Origin: Aquimarina sp. MAR_2010_214
GTDB taxonomy: Bacteria; Bacteroidota; Bacteroidia; Flavobacteriales; Flavobacteriaceae
Assembly (NCBI RefSeq): GCF_002846555.1
Contig: NZ_PJMS01000001.1
Coordinates: 3,782,001 to 3,846,000 of the forward strand
Length of the DNA: 64,000 nucleotides
Direction of reading: 5' to 3'
Shown: one piece after another, positions 50,472-61,530 of the stretch
Numbering within the stretch: position 1 is the first letter of the stretch
Layout: the number at the start of each line of letters is the position of its first letter
The notes under the pieces: model-generated
What the model saw: the letters and a program-made list of their open reading frames with translations, nothing else
Databases searched by the model: none
Told to the model about the DNA's origin: nothing
Position numbers and translations under genes: made by a program

Positions 50472-51617
50472 ATGTATATTCAATACTTGAATAAGTCTTC
50501 ACACATAATAATCATTGGCGGAGGGCTCGCCGGACTAACTAATGCTATTCACCTGGCTAAGGCAGGTATTCCTGTTACACTTATCGAAATGAATATATAT
50601 CCAAAACATAAAGTATGTGGTGAATATATATCTAATGAAGTACTCCCATATTTTGATTTTTTGGATATCGATATCAATGTTTTACAACCTACCAGGATTT
50701 CAAAATTTAATATAACTACACAAAAAGGAAAATGTATACAAAGCACATTACCATTAGGAGGTTTTGGAGTTAGTAGATATACTCTAGACCATTGGCTTTG
50801 GAAAAAAGCAGCAATAGCAGGCGTACAATTACTAAATGATCAGGTAATTGATGTGCATTATGAGAATAATAATTTTCAGGTTAAAACGGCTGGTAATAAA
50901 ATGTTAACTACTGATTATGTTATTGGTGCATATGGAAAGCGAACTCAACTTGATAAAGCTTTACAACGAAATTTTAGTTATCGAAGATCTCCTTGGTTGG
51001 CCGTTAAAGCACATTACAGGGCAGATTTTGATTCAAATACTGTCTCTCTCCATAATTTTGAAGGAGGATACTGTGGTCTTTCTATGGTAGAGAATAACAT
51101 GGTAAATGCGTGTTATCTGGCTACTTATGATAGTTTTAAAAAACATAAAGATTTAGGTATCTTTCAAAAGGAAGTTCTGTGTAAAAATCCATATCTAAAT
51201 ACATTTTTTAAGAATGCAGAACCACTATTTGGTACCCCCATTACTATAAGTCAGATAAATTTTGATAAGAAAAGTCCAGTTGAGGATCATGTCTTTATGA
51301 CCGGAGATGCTGCTGGCTTAATTCACCCTCTTTGTGGTAATGGTATGGCAATGGCAATACAAAGTGCTCAGATACTTAGTGAGCTACTAATAAATAATTA
51401 TGATCAAGGCTTAATTACTCCAAGGAAAATAATAGAAACAAACTACACTAAGCAATGGAATAAAGCATTTTCTAAACGATTGTATGCTGGCAGAGCATTA
51501 CAAAAAATCTTATTAAATGGTAGACTACAAGAGCTCTCTTATACTATAGCCAATATAATACCAGCTATAGTGCCTAGAATTATAAAACAAACCCATGGAG
51601 AGCCTTTGATATGCTAA
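50472..51617 (+). CDS. FAD-dependent oxidoreductase of the polyketide cluster
   Basis: The 381-residue flavoprotein has the dinucleotide motif IIIIGGGLAGLTNAIHLA (12-29) and the second FAD motif FMTGDAAGLIHPLCGNGM. It resembles geranylgeranyl-reductase and hydroxylase-like enzymes. Its stop overlaps the methyltransferase by 7 bp, and a type III polyketide synthase follows. By analogy with SrsC of Streptomyces it may hydroxylate the aromatic product to a quinone or quinol. The analogy is functional, not shown by sequence. Confidence 0.88.
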   Translation: MYIQYLNKSSHIIIIGGGLAGLTNAIHLAKAGIPVTLIEMNIYPKHKVCGEYISNEVLPYFDFLDIDINVLQPTRISKFNITTQKGKCIQSTLPLGGFGVSRYTLDHWLWKKAAIAGVQLLNDQVIDVHYENNNFQVKTAGNKMLTTDYVIGAYGKRTQLDKALQRNFSYRRSPWLAVKAHYRADFDSNTVSLHNFEGGYCGLSMVENNMVNACYLATYDSFKKHKDLGIFQKEVLCKNPYLNTFFKNAEPLFGTPITISQINFDKKSPVEDHVFMTGDAAGLIHPLCGNGMAMAIQSAQILSELLINNYDQGLITPRKIIETNYTKQWNKAFSKRLYAGRALQKILLNGRLQELSYTIANIIPAIVPRIIKQTHGEPLIC

Positions 51618-52330
51618 CAAATTTACAACATAGAAGTAATGAGGTAGAACTCATGGATAATCCAGAGGTTGAAGAAAAAGCTTTACAACTGGCCTTATCT
51701 GATATTTCGAGAGCAAATAAATGGCTGGGAGGTAATGCAATTACTATTAATGCCGTGCATAGATTGGTTAGAAATCAGAATCCATTACAAGAGATTACAA
51801 TTCTTGATTTAGGCTGTGGTGATGGTGAAATGTTAAGAGCTGTTGCTGATTCATTTAGGAAAGAAAAAAAGAATACGAAGTTAGTAGGTATTGATCTGAA
51901 TAGTAAATGTTTAGATCAAGCTATTAAACTAAGTACTTCATATCCGGAAATATCATTTTTCAACAAAGATATTTTAGAAATGGAAGGGTCAGAATTTTCT
52001 TGTGACATCATTATTTGTACATTAACATTACATCATCTTAGAGACGAGGAGATCAAAAAAGTGCTAAAAAAAGCTGTTGATCTAGCGAGAACTGCAGTGG
52101 TAATTAATGATCTTCATCGTAGCACATTAGCATACTACCTCTTTAAAGTATTCAGTTTCTTTTTTATTAAAGGATATGTTGCAAAAAATGATGGATTAGT
52201 TTCTATAAAAAGAGGTTTCAAAAAACAAGAGTTGTTATATTTTGCCAAAGCACTTCATTTACAGGAGTACAAAATAGATTGGAAATGGGCTTTCCGGTAT
52301 CGATGGGTTGTGAAAACCACCAGTGAGTAA
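51611..52330 (+). CDS. SAM-dependent methyltransferase of the polyketide cluster
   Basis: The 239-residue class I methyltransferase has motif I ILDLGCGDGEML, the acidic loop VGIDLNSKCLDQA and motif IV region DIIICTLTLHHL. It overlaps the FAD gene and is 21 bp upstream of the type III synthase. In this setting it probably methylates a phenolic hydroxyl or the ring of the polyketide; which one cannot be read from sequence. Confidence 0.9.
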   Translation: MLTNLQHRSNEVELMDNPEVEEKALQLALSDISRANKWLGGNAITINAVHRLVRNQNPLQEITILDLGCGDGEMLRAVADSFRKEKKNTKLVGIDLNSKCLDQAIKLSTSYPEISFFNKDILEMEGSEFSCDIIICTLTLHHLRDEEIKKVLKKAVDLARTAVVINDLHRSTLAYYLFKVFSFFFIKGYVAKNDGLVSIKRGFKKQELLYFAKALHLQEYKIDWKWAFRYRWVVKTTSE

Positions 52331-52351
52331 AACTAAAAAAGTAAATATAAT

Positions 52352-53404
52352 TTGAGTGTAAAAATAACTACTGTAACCAAGCAACTCCCTCAGTACATGA
52401 GAGAGACAAAAGAGATATTGCCCTTTGTTTCCGAATGGCTATCGACTCAGAATGATCGTTTCAGACGTAAAGTAATTAAGATTTTTGAAAACGCTGCGGT
52501 AGATAAGCGTTATGGGATCATGAGTATTGAAGAAGTATTTTCGGCGACTTCTTTTGAAGAGAAAAACGATATCTATATTCGAGAAGTAAAAAAATTAGGA
52601 ACATCTGTTTTAAAAAAAGCATTAGAAAAAGCTGATTGGCATCCTAAATCTCTTGATTATATCATTACTGTAAGTTGCACTGGCATTATGATTCCTTCTA
52701 TTGATGCATTTATTATTAATGATCTTAATCTCAAACAAGATATTGTAAGGTTGCCTGTTACAGAAATGGGATGTGCAGCAGGTGTTTCGGGGATTATTTA
52801 TGCGAGAAACTTTTTACAGGCTAATCCAGGAAAGAGAGCCGCGGTGATTGCTATAGAATCGCCCACAGCCACATTTCAGTTAGATGATTATAGTATGACC
52901 AATATGGTAAGTGCTGCTATTTTTGGTGATGGAGCAGCGTGTACATTATTATCATCTGAAGAAGATGCTACAGGACCAAAAATCATAGGAGACGAAATGT
53001 ATCATTTTTATGATGCAACAGCAATGATGGGATTTAAGCTAACTAACGGAGGCTTGCAAATGATACTAGATCCTAAAGTGCCAGAGACCATTGCAGCCCA
53101 TTTTCCTAATGTGATTCATCCCTTCTTGGCAAAGTACAACAAGACCATAGAAGAAGTAGATCATCTTATTTTTCATCCCGGTGGAAAAAAGATAGTACAA
53201 ACCATAGAAGAACTTTTTGGACATTTAGGCAAAAATATAGAAGACACAAAGGCTGTTTTGATGGAGTATGGTAATATGAGTAGCGCTACAGTGTTGTATG
53301 TATTAGAACGATTTCTAGCACAAGACCCGGCACCAGGAGAAACTGGGCTCATGCTTAGTTTTGGACCCGGATTTTCTGCGCAAAGAATATTACTAGAGTG
53401 GTAA
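52352..53404 (+). CDS. Type III polyketide synthase (chalcone-synthase fold)
   Basis: The 350-residue enzyme has the full catalytic triad: Cys141 (EMGCAAG), His275 (IFHPGGKK) and Asn308 (EYGNMSSA). The His-Asn spacing of 33 is the same as in chalcone synthase. The start is TTG, since no in-frame ATG occurs before residue 16. Bacterial members extend an acyl starter with malonyl-CoA and cyclise to pyrones or resorcinols. Together with the flavoprotein and methyltransferase it matches the logic of the srsABC phenolic-lipid operon. A terminator-like hairpin follows at once. Confidence 0.94.
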   Translation: MSVKITTVTKQLPQYMRETKEILPFVSEWLSTQNDRFRRKVIKIFENAAVDKRYGIMSIEEVFSATSFEEKNDIYIREVKKLGTSVLKKALEKADWHPKSLDYIITVSCTGIMIPSIDAFIINDLNLKQDIVRLPVTEMGCAAGVSGIIYARNFLQANPGKRAAVIAIESPTATFQLDDYSMTNMVSAAIFGDGAACTLLSSEEDATGPKIIGDEMYHFYDATAMMGFKLTNGGLQMILDPKVPETIAAHFPNVIHPFLAKYNKTIEEVDHLIFHPGGKKIVQTIEELFGHLGKNIEDTKAVLMEYGNMSSATVLYVLERFLAQDPAPGETGLMLSFGPGFSAQRILLEW

Positions 53405-53410
53405 AAAAAG

Positions 53411-53440
53411 ACTGGCATACTCTATTGCCGTTTTTTTTTA
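53411..53440 (+). terminator. Probable weak terminator after the type III PKS gene
   Basis: A short hairpin (ACTGGCA at 53411-53417 with TGCCGT at 53426-53431, one bulge) is followed by nine T. It would separate the PKS trio from the array downstream. Confidence 0.5.
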
Positions 53441-53455
53441 AGCACAATTATTATC

Positions 53456-53475
53456 AAAAGTTCAATAAAACGATG
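53456..53475 (+). repeat. Array repeat copy 1
   Basis: AAAAGTTCAATAAAACGATG; the final ATG (53473) starts unit 1. Confidence 0.8.
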
Positions 53476-53688
53476 AAAAATATAATAGTAATTAGTGATA
53501 TCAATATTGATGAAGAGATATACGATCCTTCTTCGGATAAATACTTTATAGTTGAAAAAATTAGCTATATGGATTCAGGAAATGATTGGTGGATTTGAGT
53601 AAGAGCTTCTGATAAAAACCCTGAAGAAAAAGGTTTCAGTATAAGTTTAACAAGTTTGAAAGATGAAAACTATAAGATAAGTCACTAA
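53473..53688 (+). pseudogene. Array unit 1: small unknown protein split by an in-frame TGA
   Basis: From ATG 53473 the frame reads 41 codons to TGA at 53596-53598 (ending SGNDWWI). It then continues in the same frame for 29 sense codons (VRASDKNPEEKGFSISLTS...) to TAA at 53686, which is the first codon of repeat copy 2. The stop at the repeat boundary implies that the 71-codon frame is the original gene and the TGA a nonsense mutation. Acidic, soluble, no known domain. The 41-residue product might still be made. Confidence 0.65.
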
Positions 53689-53705
53689 AGTTCAATAAAC
53701 CGATG
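53686..53705 (+). repeat. Array repeat copy 2
   Basis: TAAAGTTCAATAAACCGATG; the leading TAA is the final stop of unit 1 and the ATG (53703) starts unit 2. Confidence 0.85.
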
Positions 53706-54041
53706 AATAGTATACAACTTGCAATGATGGGACCTTGGCAAATAATTCTTTTGATTATTATTATCCTTTTATTATTTGTTTTCCCTTTTTATCTAATTTT
53801 TTATAAGAGAAATGAAAAAGAACATGGCATACCAATTTTTGCGAAAATAATATTGATAATTCCCTCCTTGACATGGGTAGGTATAATTACAGGATTATAT
53901 ATCTTGTTTAGAAAAAAAGAATTCTCTGAAGGGAAAAATTACAAGTTTAATAAATCAACAAGGTATTATGGAACATTTCTCCTTGTTTTAAGTATTGCTT
54001 GTACGGTGTTTTATTTAATAATGAAGGAAGCAAGAGTGTAA
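53703..54041 (+). CDS. Array unit 2: small membrane protein
   Basis: The 112-residue protein has three hydrophobic segments (about 11-33, 45-68 and 88-105) with a charged loop (YKRNEKEHG) between the first two and a short basic end. I do not recognise the family. It could be an accessory or immunity-like membrane protein. Its ATG is fixed by the repeat. The next repeat begins 3 bp after the stop. Confidence 0.75.
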   Translation: MNSIQLAMMGPWQIILLIIIILLLFVFPFYLIFYKRNEKEHGIPIFAKIILIIPSLTWVGIITGLYILFRKKEFSEGKNYKFNKSTRYYGTFLLVLSIACTVFYLIMKEARV

Positions 54042-54044
54042 TAG

Positions 54045-54064
54045 TAAAGTTTAATAAATCGATG
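54045..54064 (+). repeat. Array repeat copy 3
   Basis: TAAAGTTTAATAAATCGATG; the ATG (54062) starts unit 3. Confidence 0.8.
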
Positions 54065-54295
54065 GTTGATAAAGAAAGTGAAGAAATACAAAGAGAATTT
54101 GAATTGGCAAAACGATGGTTTGATCAAAAAGGTAAATTAATTTACTTTACCATTAATAGAAATGAGAATAATTATACCAGAGTGATATTTTCTTGTAAAG
54201 ATTATACCGAAGAAGAAAGTCATGCGGATAGTAAGTTAGCAACTATTAGATTATATAATAAAGTTCAAACAAACGATGCTTCTAAAATTACTTAA
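54062..54295 (+). CDS. Array unit 3: small soluble protein
   Basis: The 77-residue acidic protein (KESEEIQREFELAKRWFDQ, then beta-rich LIYFTINRNENNYTRVIF) has no domain that I recognise. The open frame extends upstream, but the repeat and array logic place the start at 54062. Its end reads through repeat copy 4 (KVQTNDASKIT) because two base changes there remove the stop that unit 4 uses at the same point (KVQ then stop). It therefore overlaps unit 4 by 20 bases. Confidence 0.7.
   Translation: MVDKESEEIQREFELAKRWFDQKGKLIYFTINRNENNYTRVIFSCKDYTEEESHADSKLATIRLYNKVQTNDASKIT
54259..54278 (+). repeat. Array repeat copy 4
   Basis: TAAAGTTCAAACAAACGATG; it lacks the internal TAA, so unit 3 reads through it. 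The ATG (54276) starts unit 4. Confidence 0.8.
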
Positions 54296-54731
54296 AAAGC
54301 CACATTTACTTTTCTGGAGCATCATTCCTTTATTGTTGCTTCTATCTTTTTATAAGGCTGATCAAACATTAGATGTAAATGTTCACGACACCTATTTTGT
54401 TTTTTCTCAACAACAATTATTAGTTTTATTAAGTTTGTTTTTTGGACTTACGGGCTTTATATATTGGTTGTTAGAAAATTTTAATTTTAAAACTTTAACT
54501 TTATTAAATGTATTGCATCTAATTTTTACTATTGGGGTTGTTTTGACAAATAGTATCCAAGGATTTTTATTAGATTATTTTTTAGATAAAAGGTATTATA
54601 CAAATACATCCATCCCTAATTCATCTGTATGGTTCTGTATTTTGGTAGTAATTACAGGGCAATTCATTTTTATAATAAATATTATTTTGGCTATTTTGAA
54701 AGGAAGAAATTCTAAATCTAAAGTTCAATAA
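54276..54731 (+). CDS. Array unit 4: membrane protein with cytochrome-oxidase-I-like motif
   Basis: The 151-residue protein has four hydrophobic segments (about 11-25, 46-66, 75-95, 118-142). The stretch LDVNVHDTYFVFSQQQLL (32-49) closely resembles the helix X entry of cytochrome c oxidase subunit I, which reads LHDTYYVVAHFHYVL. The HD pair (His37, Asp38), magnesium ligands in oxidase, is kept. The two haem-ligand histidines are absent. So it is not an oxidase; a relic or mimic of that segment is possible. It ends KVQ with its stop inside repeat copy 5. Confidence 0.75.
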   Translation: MLLKLLKKPHLLFWSIIPLLLLLSFYKADQTLDVNVHDTYFVFSQQQLLVLLSLFFGLTGFIYWLLENFNFKTLTLLNVLHLIFTIGVVLTNSIQGFLLDYFLDKRYYTNTSIPNSSVWFCILVVITGQFIFIINIILAILKGRNSKSKVQ

Positions 54732-54738
54732 AACGATC
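54719..54738 (+). repeat. Array repeat copy 5 (terminal)
   Basis: TAAAGTTCAATAAAACGATC; its internal TAA ends unit 4. The start codon is lost (ATC) and no frame follows, which marks the end of the array. Confidence 0.8.
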
Positions 54739-54798
54739 CTTCACTATTTCAGTTTTCAAAATTTACCGCTACCTTTAATGAGCTTAAATAATTATTGA

Positions 54799-55926
54799 AT
54801 GAAAATAAAAAAAAATGTACTATTCGGGTTTATCATTTGCATCTACTCTTGTAACAATATTGTTGATCCTAATGAGCGCTTTTTTATTCCACAATGCTCT
54901 ATCAACGAAGGAATTATAAATAAATATTATGTTACCGCGTATCCTGCTAATAATAGTGACACTAAAACTAATCTAGAATATTCTTATATAAAGAAAATTA
55001 ATGATAGTCTATATGTTAAAGAAATGTACAATCCTGCATTTAAACTTGAATCTACTAGAAAATTTAGTATAAACAATAATAATGCTAAAGAAATTAGTTA
55101 TCAGCGGTTCTATCCTATGGATACACTTACTGCCGTATATCCAGAAAATACAACTGCTAACTACATCACTTTTGATAAGGATACTGCTTATTATAGCGTT
55201 AAACTAAAAAATAAAGACTCTATTTCTATCAAAATTGATAAATCTACACTAATGCTTAAAGACACCTTAGTAGAAGAAAAATCTGCCAAAATTATAGAAC
55301 AAATTACTACAAAAACTACTTTTTTTGGAGAAACGCTTAAGGATACTTTTCAATATCGTTCTCGATCCATTTATGTTCAGGATTTGGGATTGTGGAAATC
55401 TACTGTGACTACAGATACCCAAATTAAGGAAAGAATATTAGTAGCACAATTGCTTCCAGAACAGTTTGATACACTTTCTAAACATGGCATAAAAAGAGTT
55501 GGTTATATTGATTTTGATGATACTATAGATGCAGATGCTACACTAGCACTCTGCTCTTCTCATGCTCGTATAGTGGATTACTACAATGGAGGTAATGATC
55601 GTAGCGGATTTATAGGAGGTAAAGGAAATCTAAAAAAGTTTATTGATAAAAAACTTGATAATAGCAAGTTGAATGATGAATCTGGCTATCTTACCCTCAG
55701 GTTTGTTATTAATTGCAAGGGACAAGCTGGTAAATTCGTTACCAATGAGGTTGATTTTGATTATAACGAAAAACAGTTCTCTAAACAGACTGTGATGCAT
55801 TTGTATGATATCGTTTCTAGTATAGAAAGATGGAAACCTTGTGTGATTAGAAATATAAAAAGAGATTCTTATATCTATGTAACTTTTATTCTAAAAAATG
55901 GAAAAATTCAAGATATTTTACCTTAG
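54799..55926 (+). CDS. Unknown lipoprotein with TonB-C-like end
   Basis: The 375-residue protein has a lipobox (CIYSCNN, Cys19). A beta-rich middle part is followed by a C-terminal region (about 290-370; YLTLRFVINCKGQAGKF, IERWKPCVI, YIYVTFILKNG) with the pattern of the TonB C-terminal fold found in many Bacteroidetes proteins. The two Cys in that part may pair. Function unknown. The TPR gene starts inside its end, with a 29-bp overlap. Confidence 0.78.
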   Translation: MKIKKNVLFGFIICIYSCNNIVDPNERFFIPQCSINEGIINKYYVTAYPANNSDTKTNLEYSYIKKINDSLYVKEMYNPAFKLESTRKFSINNNNAKEISYQRFYPMDTLTAVYPENTTANYITFDKDTAYYSVKLKNKDSISIKIDKSTLMLKDTLVEEKSAKIIEQITTKTTFFGETLKDTFQYRSRSIYVQDLGLWKSTVTTDTQIKERILVAQLLPEQFDTLSKHGIKRVGYIDFDDTIDADATLALCSSHARIVDYYNGGNDRSGFIGGKGNLKKFIDKKLDNSKLNDESGYLTLRFVINCKGQAGKFVTNEVDFDYNEKQFSKQTVMHLYDIVSSIERWKPCVIRNIKRDSYIYVTFILKNGKIQDILP

Positions 55927-56752
55927 TATTTTTTGTGTTTGGTTACTCTTATCAGTTAGTTCTTGTAGCCAAAACTCTGTTTTATACAAAAAGGATTTTA
56001 CAGAAGCAGAGGCTAAAGTCTTTGCTAGACAATTCATACAAGGTCTTGGTCGATATTACTATCAAGGAACACCAGAAGAACATTTTTTAATACATGAAGC
56101 TGTCGCATTAGATTCGACTTTTTCTGATGCACATAGAGAAATGGGAGCTTCTAGAGTAAAAAGAGGGATCAATACTGAAGCTATGAAGAAGTATGCAAAA
56201 GCCGTCAAATATGATGCTGAAGCTTGGCAAGGTTATCGAGGGTATCTATACTTATATTTTTATAGGGATTATGATAATGCCATTAAAGATTTTGATGAAT
56301 TAGATGCGCTTACACCAAATTTTGTAGATTACCCGCAGTCTGAAAATATTGATTTTATGAGAGGTATTGCTTATTTAATGAAAAAGGAATACTCAAAATC
56401 ACAAGAATATTTCAAAAAATTCTTTACTCATGAATTGAAATCTGGTGATCTGAATTATGTTGAGAGTAGAGCTTTTATGTACTACGGAATTACGTATTTT
56501 GAAACTGGAGATTTTGAAAAAGCATTAGAAAAATTCAATTTAGGGATTAAACATAATAAAAATGCAGATCTTTTGTATTGGAAAGTAAAGACACTAATGA
56601 AACTTGAAGCTACTAATTCCTCTGAAATCATAGTACTTCTTGAAGAATCGAAGAAACTTTTAGCCCAAGGATACAATAGCAGAAGACCTTACGTTGAAGA
56701 ATTTTACCAAACCTATGTAGAAGATATTGAAGCTCTGAAAAAGTTTAAATAA
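55898..56752 (+). CDS. TPR-containing lipoprotein
   Basis: The 284-residue protein has a lipobox (SVSSCSQ) and about four TPR-like repeats (FSDAHREMGASRVKRG, DYDNAIKDFDELDALTP, GITYFETGDFEKALEKF). TPRs mediate protein contacts, so it may assist the lipoprotein encoded before it, with which it overlaps by 29 bp. Neither has a clear role in the polyketide pathway. Confidence 0.82.
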   Translation: MEKFKIFYLSIFCVWLLLSVSSCSQNSVLYKKDFTEAEAKVFARQFIQGLGRYYYQGTPEEHFLIHEAVALDSTFSDAHREMGASRVKRGINTEAMKKYAKAVKYDAEAWQGYRGYLYLYFYRDYDNAIKDFDELDALTPNFVDYPQSENIDFMRGIAYLMKKEYSKSQEYFKKFFTHELKSGDLNYVESRAFMYYGITYFETGDFEKALEKFNLGIKHNKNADLLYWKVKTLMKLEATNSSEIIVLLEESKKLLAQGYNSRRPYVEEFYQTYVEDIEALKKFK

Positions 56753-56782
56753 AACAATACGATAATTACTGAAATTTAGCGT

Positions 56783-57574
56783 GTGAATAAAGATTTTATC
56801 AATAAAAATGAGTGGACACTGATTCTAGGTGGTAGTAGTGGACTAGGTTTAGCCTCTGCCAAAAAACTAGCTTTACATGGGATGAATATCATCATTGTGC
56901 ATCGCAATCGTAAAAGTGAAATGAATCAAATTGAAGCTGAATTTGCAACAATTAGAGAAACAGGAGTTGATTTTATTTCGTTTAATATCGATCTTTTGAA
57001 ACCAGAAAAACGAATAGAAGTCATTACCGAAATAAAGAATACGATCGATGAAGGGCGCATAAAAACAGTAGTACACAGTGTTGCAAAAGGAAATCTAAAG
57101 CCTATGGTAGATACTACACACGTATTGAAGAATGATGATTTTCATTTGACAATTGATGCTATGGCAATTAGTCTTTATGATTGGGTTACATCGATTTTTA
57201 AAGCTACATTGTTTGCAGAGGATACAAGAATTATTTCTTTTACCAGTGAAGGAAATACCAAGGCTTGGAAAAATTATGCAGCTGTTTCCGCAGCTAAAGT
57301 AGCTCTCGAAGCGATTACCAGAAGTATAGCATTAGAGTTTGCTCCCTATGGCATTAAAGCGAATTGCCTGCAGCCTGGAGCAGTCGATACCCAGTCTTTA
57401 CGAATGATACCCGGTCATGAGCAGATAATAGCACATAGCCAGCAGCGTAATCCGTTTAATCGAATTACGACACCAGAAGATGTGGCTAATGTGGTATATC
57501 TGTTATGTAAAGATGAAGCTTCCTGGATCAATGGTTGTATCATACCTGTGAATGGGGGTGAACATTTAAACTAA
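56783..57574 (+). CDS. FabL-like enoyl-ACP reductase (SDR family)
   Basis: The 263-residue SDR starts at GTG. It has the cofactor motif GGSSGLGLASA and a catalytic Tyr165-x6-Lys172 (YAAVSAAK). This Y-x6-K spacing marks enoyl-ACP reductases (FabI, FabL), whereas ketoreductases have Y-x3-K. The C-terminal half (ALEAITRSIALEF, GAVDT, NGGEHL) is much like Bacillus FabL. It would reduce the enoyl bond in the chain built by the nearby ketosynthase and dehydratase. A ketoreductase role is less likely but not excluded. Confidence 0.85.
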   Translation: MNKDFINKNEWTLILGGSSGLGLASAKKLALHGMNIIIVHRNRKSEMNQIEAEFATIRETGVDFISFNIDLLKPEKRIEVITEIKNTIDEGRIKTVVHSVAKGNLKPMVDTTHVLKNDDFHLTIDAMAISLYDWVTSIFKATLFAEDTRIISFTSEGNTKAWKNYAAVSAAKVALEAITRSIALEFAPYGIKANCLQPGAVDTQSLRMIPGHEQIIAHSQQRNPFNRITTPEDVANVVYLLCKDEASWINGCIIPVNGGEHLN

Positions 57575-57587
57575 TATAGAACTGAAT

Positions 57588-58070
57588 ATGAAAAATATGT
57601 TAATTCTGTGTCTTCCAATTATGCTTTACATCCTGTCTTGTAAAGAAGATGGCAATAGTACGGGAGATATGGTTACCGGTGCAGATAATAATAAAGCAGA
57701 GATTATCAGTGTCGAAGTAACAGGAGAAGAAGGTAAGTATTCCTTCAGTGTTGGTATCAAAAGTCCGGATACGGGATGCAATCAATATGCAAATTGGTGG
57801 GAAGTTATTTCTGAAGATGGAGAATTGCTTTACAGAAGAATTTTAGGGCATAGCCATGTGAGTGAACAGCCTTTTGTGCGATCAGGTGGTCCAGTTCCTA
57901 TTAAAAAAGATCAAATAGTGTATGTACGTGCACATATGAACACAAGTAAATATGGTAATAAGGTGTTTAAAGGTAATGTGAGTGAAGGGTTTGTAGAAAA
58001 CGTCTTAGATAGTGAATTTGCTAATGATTTAGAAATAAAACAACCGCTTCCAGATGGATGCGCATTTTAA
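57588..58070 (+). CDS. Unknown lipoprotein within the biosynthetic cluster
   Basis: The 160-residue protein has a lipobox (LYILSCKE) and one compact domain with TGCNQYANWWEVISEDG and RAHMNTSKYG, rich in aromatic and Gly residues. It ends PLPDGCAF; the two Cys (in TGC and DGC) may pair. The pattern looks like a conserved flavobacterial lipoprotein, but I know no function. It is 13 bp after the reductase and 12 bp before the dehydratase, so it is part of the operon and may bind or carry the lipid product. Confidence 0.75.
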   Translation: MKNMLILCLPIMLYILSCKEDGNSTGDMVTGADNNKAEIISVEVTGEEGKYSFSVGIKSPDTGCNQYANWWEVISEDGELLYRRILGHSHVSEQPFVRSGGPVPIKKDQIVYVRAHMNTSKYGNKVFKGNVSEGFVENVLDSEFANDLEIKQPLPDGCAF

Positions 58071-58082
58071 ACTCGTTTAATT

Positions 58083-58520
58083 TTGGTTATAGAAGATATT
58101 ATACAAGAACTGCCCTATAGCAAACCCTTTTTGTTTGTAGATGAAATTATGGAGATTGATGATGATCATATCAAAGGAAACTATACGTTTCTGCAAGATG
58201 AATATTTTTACGCAGGACATTTTAAAGACAACCCTGTTACTCCAGGAGTGATCCTTACCGAATGTATGGCGCAAATCGGGATGGCATGTTTTGGGATTTA
58301 TCTTTTAAAAGGAGAATGGAATCAAGCTGATTTTGGAGTAGCAATGACTAGTAGTGATATTAATTTTTATCAACCCGTTTATCCTAAAGAGAAAGTGACC
58401 GTAATAGCTAATAAAGAATATTTTAGATTTAGTAAGTTAAAATGTAAGGTGGTGATGTATAATTCTAAAGATGTGTTGGTTGCTAAAGGTATCGTGGCAG
58501 GAGTGGCATTTAAAAAATAA
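58083..58520 (+). CDS. Hotdog-fold 3-hydroxyacyl-ACP dehydratase (FabZ/FabA-like)
   Basis: The 145-residue protein has the FabZ active-site layout: His46 in AGHFKDNPVTPGV and Glu60 in ILTECMAQ. It starts at TTG (58083); no ATG is nearby. It removes water from a beta-hydroxyacyl chain on ACP. In this cluster it would act between a ketoreductase and the FabL-like enzyme. Confidence 0.92.
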   Translation: MVIEDIIQELPYSKPFLFVDEIMEIDDDHIKGNYTFLQDEYFYAGHFKDNPVTPGVILTECMAQIGMACFGIYLLKGEWNQADFGVAMTSSDINFYQPVYPKEKVTVIANKEYFRFSKLKCKVVMYNSKDVLVAKGIVAGVAFKK

Positions 58521-58529
58521 AATAAAGAA

Positions 58530-59429
58530 ATGAGTATAGGGTATTCATTAGTGAAATTAGTTCTTAGGCTGAAAGGAGAAAAGAAATCCTGGTCTCAAAC
58601 TCCTATTGATTATCGCAAAAAAAGAAAACAAGACGTACATACTCCTAATACAAAGCTTTTGTTAGGTAGTACGTTTGAAACCAAAGAGATATGTAATAGT
58701 AGAGTAACTAGTATTGTTCCAAGAGAAGCCAATACAGATGTATTATTATTGTATTGTCATGGTGGTGCTTTTGTTTATGGTCCGACTCGTGAAAACTGGA
58801 TAGCAATCGCTAAAATCGCAAAACAAGCACATTCTAGTGCATGGATGGTAGATTATCCAAAAGCGCCGGAAAACACTATTAAAACGATAACAGAAAGCGT
58901 GTATCAGGTATATCTGGAAGCAGCGAAAGCATACGATCCTTCTAGAATTATTTTAATAGGTGATTCTGTAGGGGGAAATTTGATTATGACTCTTACACAG
59001 CGATTACTAAAAGAAGAGTATAAGCTTCCGAATAGGTTAATAGCAATTACACCAATAGTGGATGCCAGCTTAACAAACCCAAAAATTAAGGAAATTGATT
59101 TGATAGATCCGATTCTTAGTGTGAAAGGAGTGAAATCTGCAAAGAAGATGTGTGCAGGTCAATCTTCGCTAAAAGATCGGATGATTTCCCCTGTGTACGG
59201 CGGTTTTGATAATTTTCCACCAGTACACCTGTTTACTGCTACAAACGACATATGCTCTCCTGATCAAGAGATTTTAATAGATAAAATAAAAGAGGCACAA
59301 GGCTTAATAGAAGTTATTAAAGGAAAAGGAATGCCGCATATATGGCCAATATTACCGATACTATCTGAAGCTAAAATTGCTATAAATAAAATAGTATCGA
59401 TTATTAACTCAGCTATAAATAATGAATAG
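58530..59429 (+). CDS. Alpha/beta hydrolase (HSL/acetyl-esterase type)
   Basis: The 299-residue protein has the HSL-family oxyanion motif YCHGGAF (HGG at 77-79) and the nucleophile Ser146 in GDSVGGN, with a later Asp region (TATNDICSPDQE) and His in GMPHIWP. It may act as thioesterase, transferring or releasing the acyl chain, or as an esterase trimming the product; context only. It overlaps the ketosynthase gene by 8 bp. Confidence 0.9.
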   Translation: MSIGYSLVKLVLRLKGEKKSWSQTPIDYRKKRKQDVHTPNTKLLLGSTFETKEICNSRVTSIVPREANTDVLLLYCHGGAFVYGPTRENWIAIAKIAKQAHSSAWMVDYPKAPENTIKTITESVYQVYLEAAKAYDPSRIILIGDSVGGNLIMTLTQRLLKEEYKLPNRLIAITPIVDASLTNPKIKEIDLIDPILSVKGVKSAKKMCAGQSSLKDRMISPVYGGFDNFPPVHLFTATNDICSPDQEILIDKIKEAQGLIEVIKGKGMPHIWPILPILSEAKIAINKIVSIINSAINNE

Positions 59430-60696
59430 AAGGCGTGTAGTTATAACAGGTTTAGGTGTAGTTGCTCCAAACGGAACGAGCGTTTCAGAATTTAAAAAAC
59501 ATGTTCGTGATGGAGTAAGCGGTATACACTATATAGATAATTTAAATCATCTTAAGTTTTCATGTCAAATAGCTGGTTTACCGATATATAACAATGATTA
59601 CTTAAATAATTACTTTAATTCAATTCAATTACATGGATTGAATGCTTCTGGTATGGAATACGGAGTTATTGCTGGCATGGATGCTTGGAAAGATTCCAAG
59701 TTACCTATCAATGATTCTGAAACACCTCTTTGGGATGTCGGGGTTATTTTTGGAACGGGAATATTAGGCGTAGATAAATTTCGAGAAGCCATTTATAAAG
59801 TAGATGAAGGTAAAGTAAGAAGATTGGGTAGCACTACAGTTACTCAAACTATGGCCAGTGGTATTAGTGCTTTTTTAGGAGGTATGTTAGGATGCGGAAA
59901 TGTGGTTACCACTAATTCTTCGGCTTGTAGTACAGGAACTGAAGCTATTTTGATGGCTTATGACCGAATATGCGATGGTAAAGCAGAAATTATTCTGGCT
60001 GGTAGTACAAATGATAGTGGTCCTTATGTATGGGGAGGCTTTGATGCTATGCGTATTTTGCCGTATAAGTATAATGATAACCCAACTGAAGCTTCACGGC
60101 CTATGAGTGCTACAGCTAGCGGTTTTGTTCCAGGGAGTGGAGCAGGGGCTTTGGTTATCGAAAGTCTGGATAGTGCCCAAAAAAGAGGAGCTACAATCTA
60201 TGCAGAAATTTTGGGTGGACATGTAAATAGCGGCGGGCAACGTAAAGGAGGAAGTATGACAGCTCCAAATAGCGAAGCAGTACAACATTGTATTCGTAAA
60301 GCAGTAACCAATGCAGAAATTGATCCGGGAGAAATCGATGCCATCAATGGTCACTTAACCGCCACAACAATGGATAGCATCGAAATACAAAATTGGAGTA
60401 TTGCCTTAGGGCGAAAAGGGCAGGATTTCCCGTACATCAATTCACTTAAAAGTATGGTGGGACATTGCCTTGCGGCTTCTGGTAGTATAGAAAGCGTAGC
60501 AACTGTATTACAATTGAAAGAAGATTTCATCTTTGGGAATATAAATTGTGAAGATTTACACCCCGAAATTGAAAATATGGTATCCAGAGATCGAATTCCT
60601 ACCAAAACCTTTGACTATTCTCCTAAAATTATAGCAAAAGCTAGTTTTGGGTTTGGAGATGTAAACGCTTGCGTTATCTTTAAGAAATACTCATAA
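59422..60696 (+). CDS. Beta-ketoacyl-ACP synthase (KAS II type)
   Basis: The 424-residue condensing enzyme has the triad Cys169 (SSACSTGTEA), His311 (INGHLTATT) and His348 (MVGHCLAASG), and begins RRVVITGLGVVAPNG. It carries out decarboxylative condensation on malonyl-ACP. All three catalytic residues are present, so it is not a chain-length factor. Clustered with its own ACP and PPTase, it is a dedicated enzyme rather than the housekeeping FabF. Confidence 0.94.
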   Translation: MNRRRVVITGLGVVAPNGTSVSEFKKHVRDGVSGIHYIDNLNHLKFSCQIAGLPIYNNDYLNNYFNSIQLHGLNASGMEYGVIAGMDAWKDSKLPINDSETPLWDVGVIFGTGILGVDKFREAIYKVDEGKVRRLGSTTVTQTMASGISAFLGGMLGCGNVVTTNSSACSTGTEAILMAYDRICDGKAEIILAGSTNDSGPYVWGGFDAMRILPYKYNDNPTEASRPMSATASGFVPGSGAGALVIESLDSAQKRGATIYAEILGGHVNSGGQRKGGSMTAPNSEAVQHCIRKAVTNAEIDPGEIDAINGHLTATTMDSIEIQNWSIALGRKGQDFPYINSLKSMVGHCLAASGSIESVATVLQLKEDFIFGNINCEDLHPEIENMVSRDRIPTKTFDYSPKIIAKASFGFGDVNACVIFKKYS

Positions 60697-60733
60697 AATA
60701 GTACTAAATATAAGTATCAACTCAAATTATATT

Positions 60734-60988
60734 ATGACAAAAGAAGAATTACTTTCTAAATTAAAAACAATTATTACTCCGTATGTGCAAAATGAAAAAG
60801 GACTTAATACCCTTACCGAAAACACTGATTTTATAAAAGATCTGGAAATTAATTCTGCCAACCTGGTAGATGTAGTACTTGATGTAGAAGACGAATTTGA
60901 TATTGAGATTGATAATGATTCGATGGAGAAGATGTTAACCATTAAGGCTTCAATAGCTGTGATAGAAGATAAATTAGCTTCCAAATGA
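60734..60988 (+). CDS. Dedicated acyl carrier protein
   Basis: The 84-residue acidic four-helix protein carries the probable phosphopantetheine Ser41 in LEINSANLVDVV. The usual DSL motif is replaced by NSA, as in many specialised ACPs. The rest (VEDEFDIEIDND) is typical. It follows the ketosynthase and overlaps the PPTase by 4 bp, so it is most likely its substrate. Confidence 0.92.
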   Translation: MTKEELLSKLKTIITPYVQNEKGLNTLTENTDFIKDLEINSANLVDVVLDVEDEFDIEIDNDSMEKMLTIKASIAVIEDKLASK

Positions 60989-61530
60989 TTGGTAATGATA
61001 TTGTAGACCTTCAATTGGCCAATCATCAGAGTAATTGGCAGAGGAGAGGTTGGTTGCAAAAAATATTTACCAAAACAGAACTACAATATATTTATACTTC
61101 AGAAAATATAGAATTACAAATCTGGAAGTTTTGGAGTATGAAAGAGGCGGCATATAAAGCTCATCAGAGGCGATTTAACTTTTTTCCGAAGTACAATCCC
61201 AAAAGTTATCAATGTACGCTAAATGGCGCTGTAAATGTAGATAACGATGTCTACAAAACGATTACACTTAGCCAAGATGAATATGTGTATAGTATTGCAA
61301 GGATATCATCTGATAAAGGATATTACTCTTCAGTATATGATAAAAAAGTAGATGTACATTCTAAACTAAAAGAAATCATCACTAAAAAACTTAATATATC
61401 TTCACCATTGATTTACTTTAGAAAGAATAGTAGGGGAGTCCCGATAATAAATATTGATGAACATTCCTTAGAATTACCTATATCCATTACTCATCATGGT
61501 CAATATTCAGCATGTGTAGTCACTTTTTAA
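60985..61530 (+). CDS. 4'-phosphopantetheinyl transferase
   Basis: The 181-residue enzyme has the two PPTase motifs GNDIVDL (3-9) and WSMKEAAYK (50-58, with catalytic Glu54 and Lys58). Length and layout fit the AcpS-like single-domain class with an extended C-terminus. It would activate the ACP with which it shares a 4-bp overlap. It closes the biosynthetic cluster. Confidence 0.93.
   Translation: MIGNDIVDLQLANHQSNWQRRGWLQKIFTKTELQYIYTSENIELQIWKFWSMKEAAYKAHQRRFNFFPKYNPKSYQCTLNGAVNVDNDVYKTITLSQDEYVYSIARISSDKGYYSSVYDKKVDVHSKLKEIITKKLNISSPLIYFRKNSRGVPIINIDEHSLELPISITHHGQYSACVVTF

Follow-up and report, generated by a model that had tools for sequence, protein, structure and literature searches.

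Single-gene cassettes bounded by an 18-bp site in Aquimarina and other marine Flavobacteriaceae, probably moved by a serine recombinase

A 64,000-nucleotide stretch of the genome of Aquimarina sp. MAR_2010_214 (contig NZ_PJMS01000001.1, positions 3,782,001 to 3,846,000, called hereafter the window) contains, at 53456–54738, four small units bounded by five near-identical direct repeats. As judged by comparison of genomes, it is one small array of a cassette system present in Aquimarina and other marine Flavobacteriaceae. We propose that conservative site-specific recombination at the repeat moves single small-gene cassettes between co-oriented arrays, and that a serine recombinase is the likeliest catalyst; the probability that we attach to this reading is about 0.72.

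The 18-bp site and the movement of cassettes

Comparison of arrays gave 81 pairs of homologous cassettes, in 38 independent families, of which 79 could be judged for their neighbours. Both neighbours differed in 68 pairs, one differed in ten and none in a single pair. Units therefore move singly, with breaks at the repeat. Cassettes at least 90% identical were found between unlike neighbours; L087 and L141, for example, have in common a 702-bp unit, 98% identical, in unlike surroundings (L and G numbers are our handles for loci and genomes). As read from these comparisons, an 18-bp site bounds each unit, and units recur singly between unlike neighbours.

Turnover was also seen at two syntenic loci, compared between species and not between strains of one species: array content varied, and the flank from the last repeat onward was 92–93% identical. 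L183 (17 sites, G028) and L196 (10 sites, G018) have 6.7 kb in common at 92% identity, beginning inside the last site; upstream of it, a single 229-bp piece (77%) is common to both. The first 640 bp of this common flank recur as a repeat-bounded unit on contig 65 of G029, so that the last cassette may be common to both arrays. For L198 and L330, the flanks were 95% and 93% identical and the array contents mostly different, and one 96% identical stretch spans exactly from repeat to repeat.

The conserved sequence, examined in 308 sites from 50 loci, is 18 bp long (about AAAGTTYAAWWAAMCGAT), with no conservation outside it. The base that follows is G, completing an ATG, in only 50% of these sites, so that the start codon often accompanies the site without defining it. 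Exact matches to AAAGTTYAAWWAAMCGAT were present in 34 of the 52 genomes of the genus, 22 of which had at least three; the genus total, summed from the table, was 193 versus 1 for the reversed control, and the largest array held 21 copies (up to two mismatches) within a 20-kb stretch. In a sample of the family, 45 of 349 genomes matched AAAGTYYAAWWAAMCGAT, 11 of them with at least three matches. A pattern scan of species genomes returned at least 113 stretches; among the 80 listed, every locus with two or more copies was from Aquimarina, and single matches were also scattered over unrelated bacteria in a chance-like way. The idea that the arrays are borne by phages was rejected, 18 viral contigs having one match each. 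Repeats also occur in head-to-head pairs that form a near-perfect palindrome, AAAGTTCAAATAAACGATCGTTTTATTGAACTTT (letters from L102), at G018:C6:16055–16088, in L102 and at L391:18012–18045.

The original prediction had offered, as one role for the repeat, a junction at which recombination exchanges entire reading frames, recognisable by further arrays with other small genes and by gain or loss of whole units at repeat boundaries. Both were found, the second of them between species, which upholds this role; the repeat is not confined to the window, the genes that it bounds vary, and it is not the motif of one gene family.

The median cassette length was 472.5 bp. The longest open reading frame (ORF) lay on the strand of the site in 365 of 390 cassettes and on the opposite strand in nine, the remaining 16 having none. 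The 519 cassette ORFs fell into 440 clusters, from which 130 representatives were drawn at random. Pfam matched 60 families among them, none in more than two members (66 family-member matches), and at least 64 proteins were without a match. Immunity domains were detected in few (SUKH-1, SUKH_6 and SUKH_5 in two each, Imm7 in one; the members may overlap). The suggestion that cassettes are mainly known defence systems was unsupported, PADLOC having returned seven families with one protein each. Among six long cassette proteins, two matched defence models.

A site (at most one mismatch) was present upstream of the tRNA-Leu/prs locus in five of 28 located genomes and absent in the other 23, one of which had only 240 bp upstream; two loci without a match and one wrong locus were dropped from this count. 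In the five genomes (L414, L415, L418, L425, L122), the last site lies 0.2–1.5 kb from tRNA-Leu(caa)/prs. The locus is apparently a hotspot for islands in Aquimarina.

The crossover was mapped in 22 independent families at 85% identity or more. At the variable bases 6, 7, 10 and 11 of the site, only the left repeat differed in 11 cases and only the right in none (p = 0.001). The beginning of the site therefore travels with the preceding cassette, and these markers indicate that the exchange points are within the repeat, 3′ of base 11. For bases 14–16 the tendency was opposite, towards the downstream side (2 versus 6), which is not significant in independent families (p = 0.29); it was clearer among all pairs of at least 90% identity, though those pairs are not independent. 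Between the flanking markers, significant on the left and not on the right, lie two invariant bases. The crossover is probably at this invariant AA (bases 12–13), with a 2-bp overlap, and is more firmly bounded on its 5′ than on its 3′ side. An early guess, the AT of bases 17–18, was dropped after the marker mapping.

A serine recombinase and the alternatives to it

Upstream of arrays, and co-directional with them, lies a gene for a resolvase-type serine recombinase of 226 amino acids (PF00239, E = 6e-40), whose solved relatives are gamma-delta resolvase, Tn3 resolvase and DNA-invertase. The N-terminal YARxST catalytic motif is retained and aligns to gamma-delta resolvase, and R7 and S9 were nearly invariant among 25 aligned homologues. 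A C-terminal CxxC...CxxH tail (L190:14456–15133), kept in most of these 25 and absent in two, looks like a zinc-binding extension. Matches to the enzyme were found in 20 of the 52 genus genomes (E 1e-20) and in 18 of the 349 of the family sample (E 1e-35). The protein database contained 266 homologues, and among the best 120 nearly every named one was annotated as recombinase family protein, resolvase or DNA invertase.

Repeats were counted within 12 kb of 29 recombinase genes (at least 46% identity, start present, locus of at least 6 kb), some of the genus loci having been fetched because they bear arrays. Downstream of the gene, 127 repeats were on the same strand and one on the opposite strand; upstream, one was on the same strand and 16 on the opposite strand. 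At least two same-strand repeats lay downstream at 22 of the 29 loci. Twenty regions of other genera, from 24 matches, were fetched on the recombinase alone. When its identity was 47% or more, a downstream repeat was present in 12 of 15 regions and at least two in 11, versus none of five regions below 47%. With genomes of at least three sites taken as array-bearing, the recombinase was present in 6 of 11 array-bearing and 12 of 338 other genomes of the family sample (p = 3e-6), and, at 50% identity or more, in 12 of 22 versus 4 of 30 in the genus (p = 0.002). The original prediction had advised looking for a recombinase shared by genomes with arrays, and this enzyme accompanies many arrays.

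Nearly all the upstream repeats on the opposite strand (15 of 16) were an inverted copy located 87–93 nt before the recombinase gene, and in a separately built set (at least 47% identity) 20 of 29 genes had an inverted site at 86–92 nt. In a tree of 39 recombinases, rooted for drawing only, nine of the 15 lacking a downstream repeat grouped in a single clade with a long branch (1.15); for six of these nine, only 1.5 kb of flank was seen. Around distant serine recombinases of 44–47% identity (L294–L297, L386–L389) no arrays were seen, and in some of this group the gene is immediately preceded by a full dyad or by the inverted site AAAGTCTCATAAAACGAC. At L087:3946–4300, a repeat joins precisely onto a serine recombinase gene that is truncated (start at FSGIAELERD), as though the gene had been cut at a cassette junction. 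Inspection by eye also revealed a defence-like gene directly after the recombinase, with no repeat between, in L354, L367, L351, L368, L045 and L359; the genes that directly follow some recombinases were named, again by eye, restriction-like, OLD-like, DUF1016-like and antitoxin-like.

Consider a cassette composed roughly of MCGAT, a gene and AAAGTTYAAWWAA. It would be excised as a circle, then inserted at another repeat by a crossover, probably at the invariant AA (bases 12–13). The likeliest catalyst is the resolvase-type serine recombinase whose gene precedes many arrays and points the same way; the 5′ region of this gene usually bears an inverted copy of a nearly identical site. Recombination would often complete an ATG (GAT + G). 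The repeat contributes a stop codon to one reading frame, or to two if T precedes it. With start and stop so provided, a cassette would readily be read as one gene of an operon-like row.

Several points weigh against this proposal. Recombination itself was not observed, and catalysis by the serine recombinase is inferred from sequence. Many arrays, that of the window included, are without this recombinase, no match to it was found in 5 of the 11 family-sample genomes with at least three sites, and some array-adjacent copies are broken or fragments (L189, L330, L194, L333). Nine of the 29 recombinase genes have no inverted site at 86–92 nt; where present, this site ends in GAC, CAC or GGT-like, not in GAT, and it may serve another purpose. 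Resolvase sites are usually dyads, and no dyad is visible around the AA. Given the weak signal at bases 14–16, the crossover is not firmly at the AA rather than nearer the end of the site. Lastly, a second site type, AAAGTCTCATAAAACGAT, was predicted in arrays for divergent serine recombinases, and this prediction failed.

The main rival, which we consider unlikely, is that cassettes are moved by a tyrosine integrase (domains Arm-DNA-bind_5, SAM_5 and Phage_integrase) convergent at some array 3′ ends, the serine recombinase being a passenger or a co-integrate resolver. In L189, L190, L194, L332, L278 and L197/L333, a whole or fragmentary recombinase gene is followed by the array and then by the convergent integrase, and in 3 of 30 integrase loci (two in G044, one in G040) the repeat begins exactly at the integrase stop codon; in L198 the integrase is 3′ of the array but co-directional. 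However, at least two repeats within 12 kb were present in only 3 of 20 integrase-centred regions, a count that includes L280, chosen when known to hold repeats, versus 11 of 15 recombinase-centred regions of other genera, and only 1 of the 20 regions of other genera had this integrase (L380, 32% identity). Six integrase genes (in G007, G017, G024, G025, G028 and G044) start 140–250 bp past a tRNA-Leu segment match, and we therefore take the enzyme to be the integrase of the array-bearing island itself. The overlap of tyrosine recombinases is usually 6–8 bp, for which at most about two invariant bases between the flanking markers would be short.

It is less probable still that the units are shuffled without any dedicated enzyme, by homologous or illegitimate recombination of the ordinary kind acting on short repeats. 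Many arrays are indeed without a recombinase of either family sought, but the exchange points fall to the same side of a fixed position within the repeat, one enzyme family holds a fixed position and strand relative to the arrays, and 18 bp is very short for homologous exchange.

Very little can be said for canonical integron arrays that have lost their integrase and whose attC sites are degenerate, beyond a similar look, with mostly co-oriented and very diverse small genes. The integron integrase model TIGR02249 was above cut-off in none of the 52 genus genomes, the array-linked tyrosine integrase scoring 41.6 bits for a cut-off of 265, and the conserved stretch is exactly 18 bp. The best match of the reversed repeat in the preceding 150 nt was 10.5 of 18, equal to that in shuffled sequence (n = 596), in agreement with the original prediction, which had seen no attC-like pairing. 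The reverse complement of the core was not among the most enriched words, and attC folding was rejected, as there was no excess complementarity upstream of the repeat.

Weakest of all is a regulatory or translation-start motif common to unrelated genes and spread by selection, not recombination: about half of the sites do complete an ATG, as suits the start element that had been the other role first suggested for the repeat, the repeat often provides a stop and the bases ahead of the ATG are rich in A, but the other half of the sites make no ATG, and the near-identical cassettes between unlike neighbours, together with syntenic arrays that differ by whole units, refute such a motif as the whole explanation.

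The array in the window

A repeat search scored against the 20-bp consensus first proposed found five matches in the window, versus 0.04 expected from 100 shuffles, with 1, 1, 2, 2 and 1 mismatches for copies 1 to 5. All are on the forward strand, as are the units. Copies 1 to 4 end with an ATG that in each case opens an ORF: copy 1 (53456–53475), at the 5′ end of the array, has the ATG of unit 1 as its last three bases; copy 2 (53686–53705) carries the TAA of the unit 1 frame and the ATG of unit 2; copies 3 (54045–54064) and 4 (54259–54278) carry the ATG of units 3 and 4. Copy 5 (54719–54738), at the 3′ end, has a terminal ATC, where no gene begins, and carries the TAA of unit 4.

The gene of unit 1 (53473–53688) is interrupted by an in-frame TGA at 53596–53598, after 41 amino acids, and runs on for 29 further codons up to the TAA at 53686–53688 in copy 2; it had no relative among the fetched loci. 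Unit 2 (53703–54041) encodes a membrane protein of 112 amino acids with relatives (52–54% identity) in L123 and L146, where the match begins 3–11 bp past a repeat. Unit 3 (54062–54295, 77 amino acids) runs across copy 4 and overlaps unit 4; a relative (50%) is flanked by two repeats in L196. Unit 4 (54276–54731) encodes a membrane protein of 151 amino acids, with its stop, TAA 54729–54731, inside copy 5. Its relatives (58–76%) are flanked by two repeats in L057, L036, L087 and L347; for those in L024, L242, L064, L070 and L080, two recognised bounding repeats were not seen in the sequence at hand. The five repeats around four units, the start codons in repeat ends and the stop codons inside copies 2 and 5 are thus as originally described, with the corrections that unit 1 is broken by a TGA and that unit 3 overruns copy 4.

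No second array was seen by repeat search in the genome of the window, a single contig of 5.98 Mb. With at most one mismatch, one additional single copy was found, at 5248864; with at most three, there were 42 matches versus 41 for the reversed control, that is, no enrichment. A search at E 1e-20 gave no match to the serine recombinase in this genome, and the array is therefore an orphan. The first impression that no integrase lies nearby is correct in this sense for the genome of the window, but recombinases accompany the arrays in relatives.

Judging from gene order in related loci, a biosynthetic operon is interrupted by the array and the two genes next to it, 54799–55926 and 55898–56752. 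In L202–L207, whose type III polyketide synthase (PKS) is 94–96% identical, a short-chain dehydrogenase comes right after the PKS and the gene pair is located elsewhere; in the window this dehydrogenase starts at 56783. The array and the pair are therefore a lineage-specific insertion (53405–56782). An orthologue of the 54799 gene (at least 56% identity) was elsewhere, behind an unrelated transporter-like gene, in nine of the ten genomes that have one; in the tenth, G019 (L152), a degenerate repeat with three mismatches precedes it, at a distance that matches copy 5. The locus split by the insertion (50472–61530) comprises, with names given by eye, the type III PKS, the short-chain dehydrogenase, and dehydratase-like, ketosynthase-like, acyl-carrier and phosphopantetheinyl-transferase-like genes. 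A terminator-like hairpin with a T-run (53413–53430, forward strand), placed after the type III PKS gene and before the array, is a consensus match only; one was found versus 0.5 expected.

Comparison with known systems

Like the small serine recombinases (Tn3/gamma-delta resolvases, DNA invertases), the enzyme described here has a PF00239 domain with the catalytic serine motif, and in most cases an inverted copy of the site just upstream of its gene. Unlike them, it is linked to arrays of single-gene cassettes and has the additional C-terminal Cys/His tail.

The arrays resemble integrons and clusters of attC sites lacking integron-integrases (CALIN) in that many unrelated, co-oriented small genes are bounded by a common recombination site, that arrays occur both with and without a nearby recombinase, and that units move singly. 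They differ in that no IntI was above cut-off in the 52 genus genomes and the 18-bp site is without attC pairing. The recombinase most consistently linked to the arrays is a serine enzyme encoded in the direction of the array, whereas intI is usually divergent from the integron cassette array. In integrons, cassettes enter at an attI site beside the integrase; here an inverted site precedes the serine recombinase in 20 of 29 genes, but the arrays are on the other side of the gene.

We lean, with somewhat less confidence than for the proposal made at the outset, towards an analogue of the integron that evolved independently across marine Flavobacteriaceae, in which a small serine recombinase would capture, shuffle and lose single-gene cassettes at an 18-bp double-stranded site, with no folded single strand and with a crossover that often completes a start codon. 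No description of serine-recombinase cassette arrays was found in the literature, of which subscription papers and bioRxiv were thinly covered; if this reading is true, it would be the first general cassette-array platform run by serine rather than tyrosine recombination, as far as that search shows. The integron is the textbook device by which genes are stockpiled and shuffled, and folded single-stranded sites with a tyrosine integrase are easily assumed to be necessary for such a device. A second platform, with the same logic, another class of enzyme and a plain short site, would mean that the design evolved more than once. It might also provide a simple new tool for the insertion of whole reading frames, and it reveals a cassette-gene reservoir in a genus whose genomes yielded no canonical integron integrase.

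The closest described relative in layout, from the part of its description that was available, is the recombinase-associated acquired interbacterial defence (rAID) system of gut Bacteroidales, in which a predicted tyrosine recombinase is associated with orphan immunity genes (PMC12247911). Both have co-oriented short genes with conserved intergenic motifs, a likeness at the level of description, and a few cassettes here have immunity domains such as SUKH-1 and Imm7. Compared with that account, the upstream enzyme here is a PF00239 serine recombinase, and the tyrosine integrase, where it stands at an array end, is 3′ and convergent (co-directional in L198); the bacteria concerned are marine Flavobacteriaceae, and immunity domains are rare among the sampled cassettes. 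Neither the integron nor rAID, so far as the latter is described in that part, fits: the system lacks a tested defining feature of each, yet it works like both.
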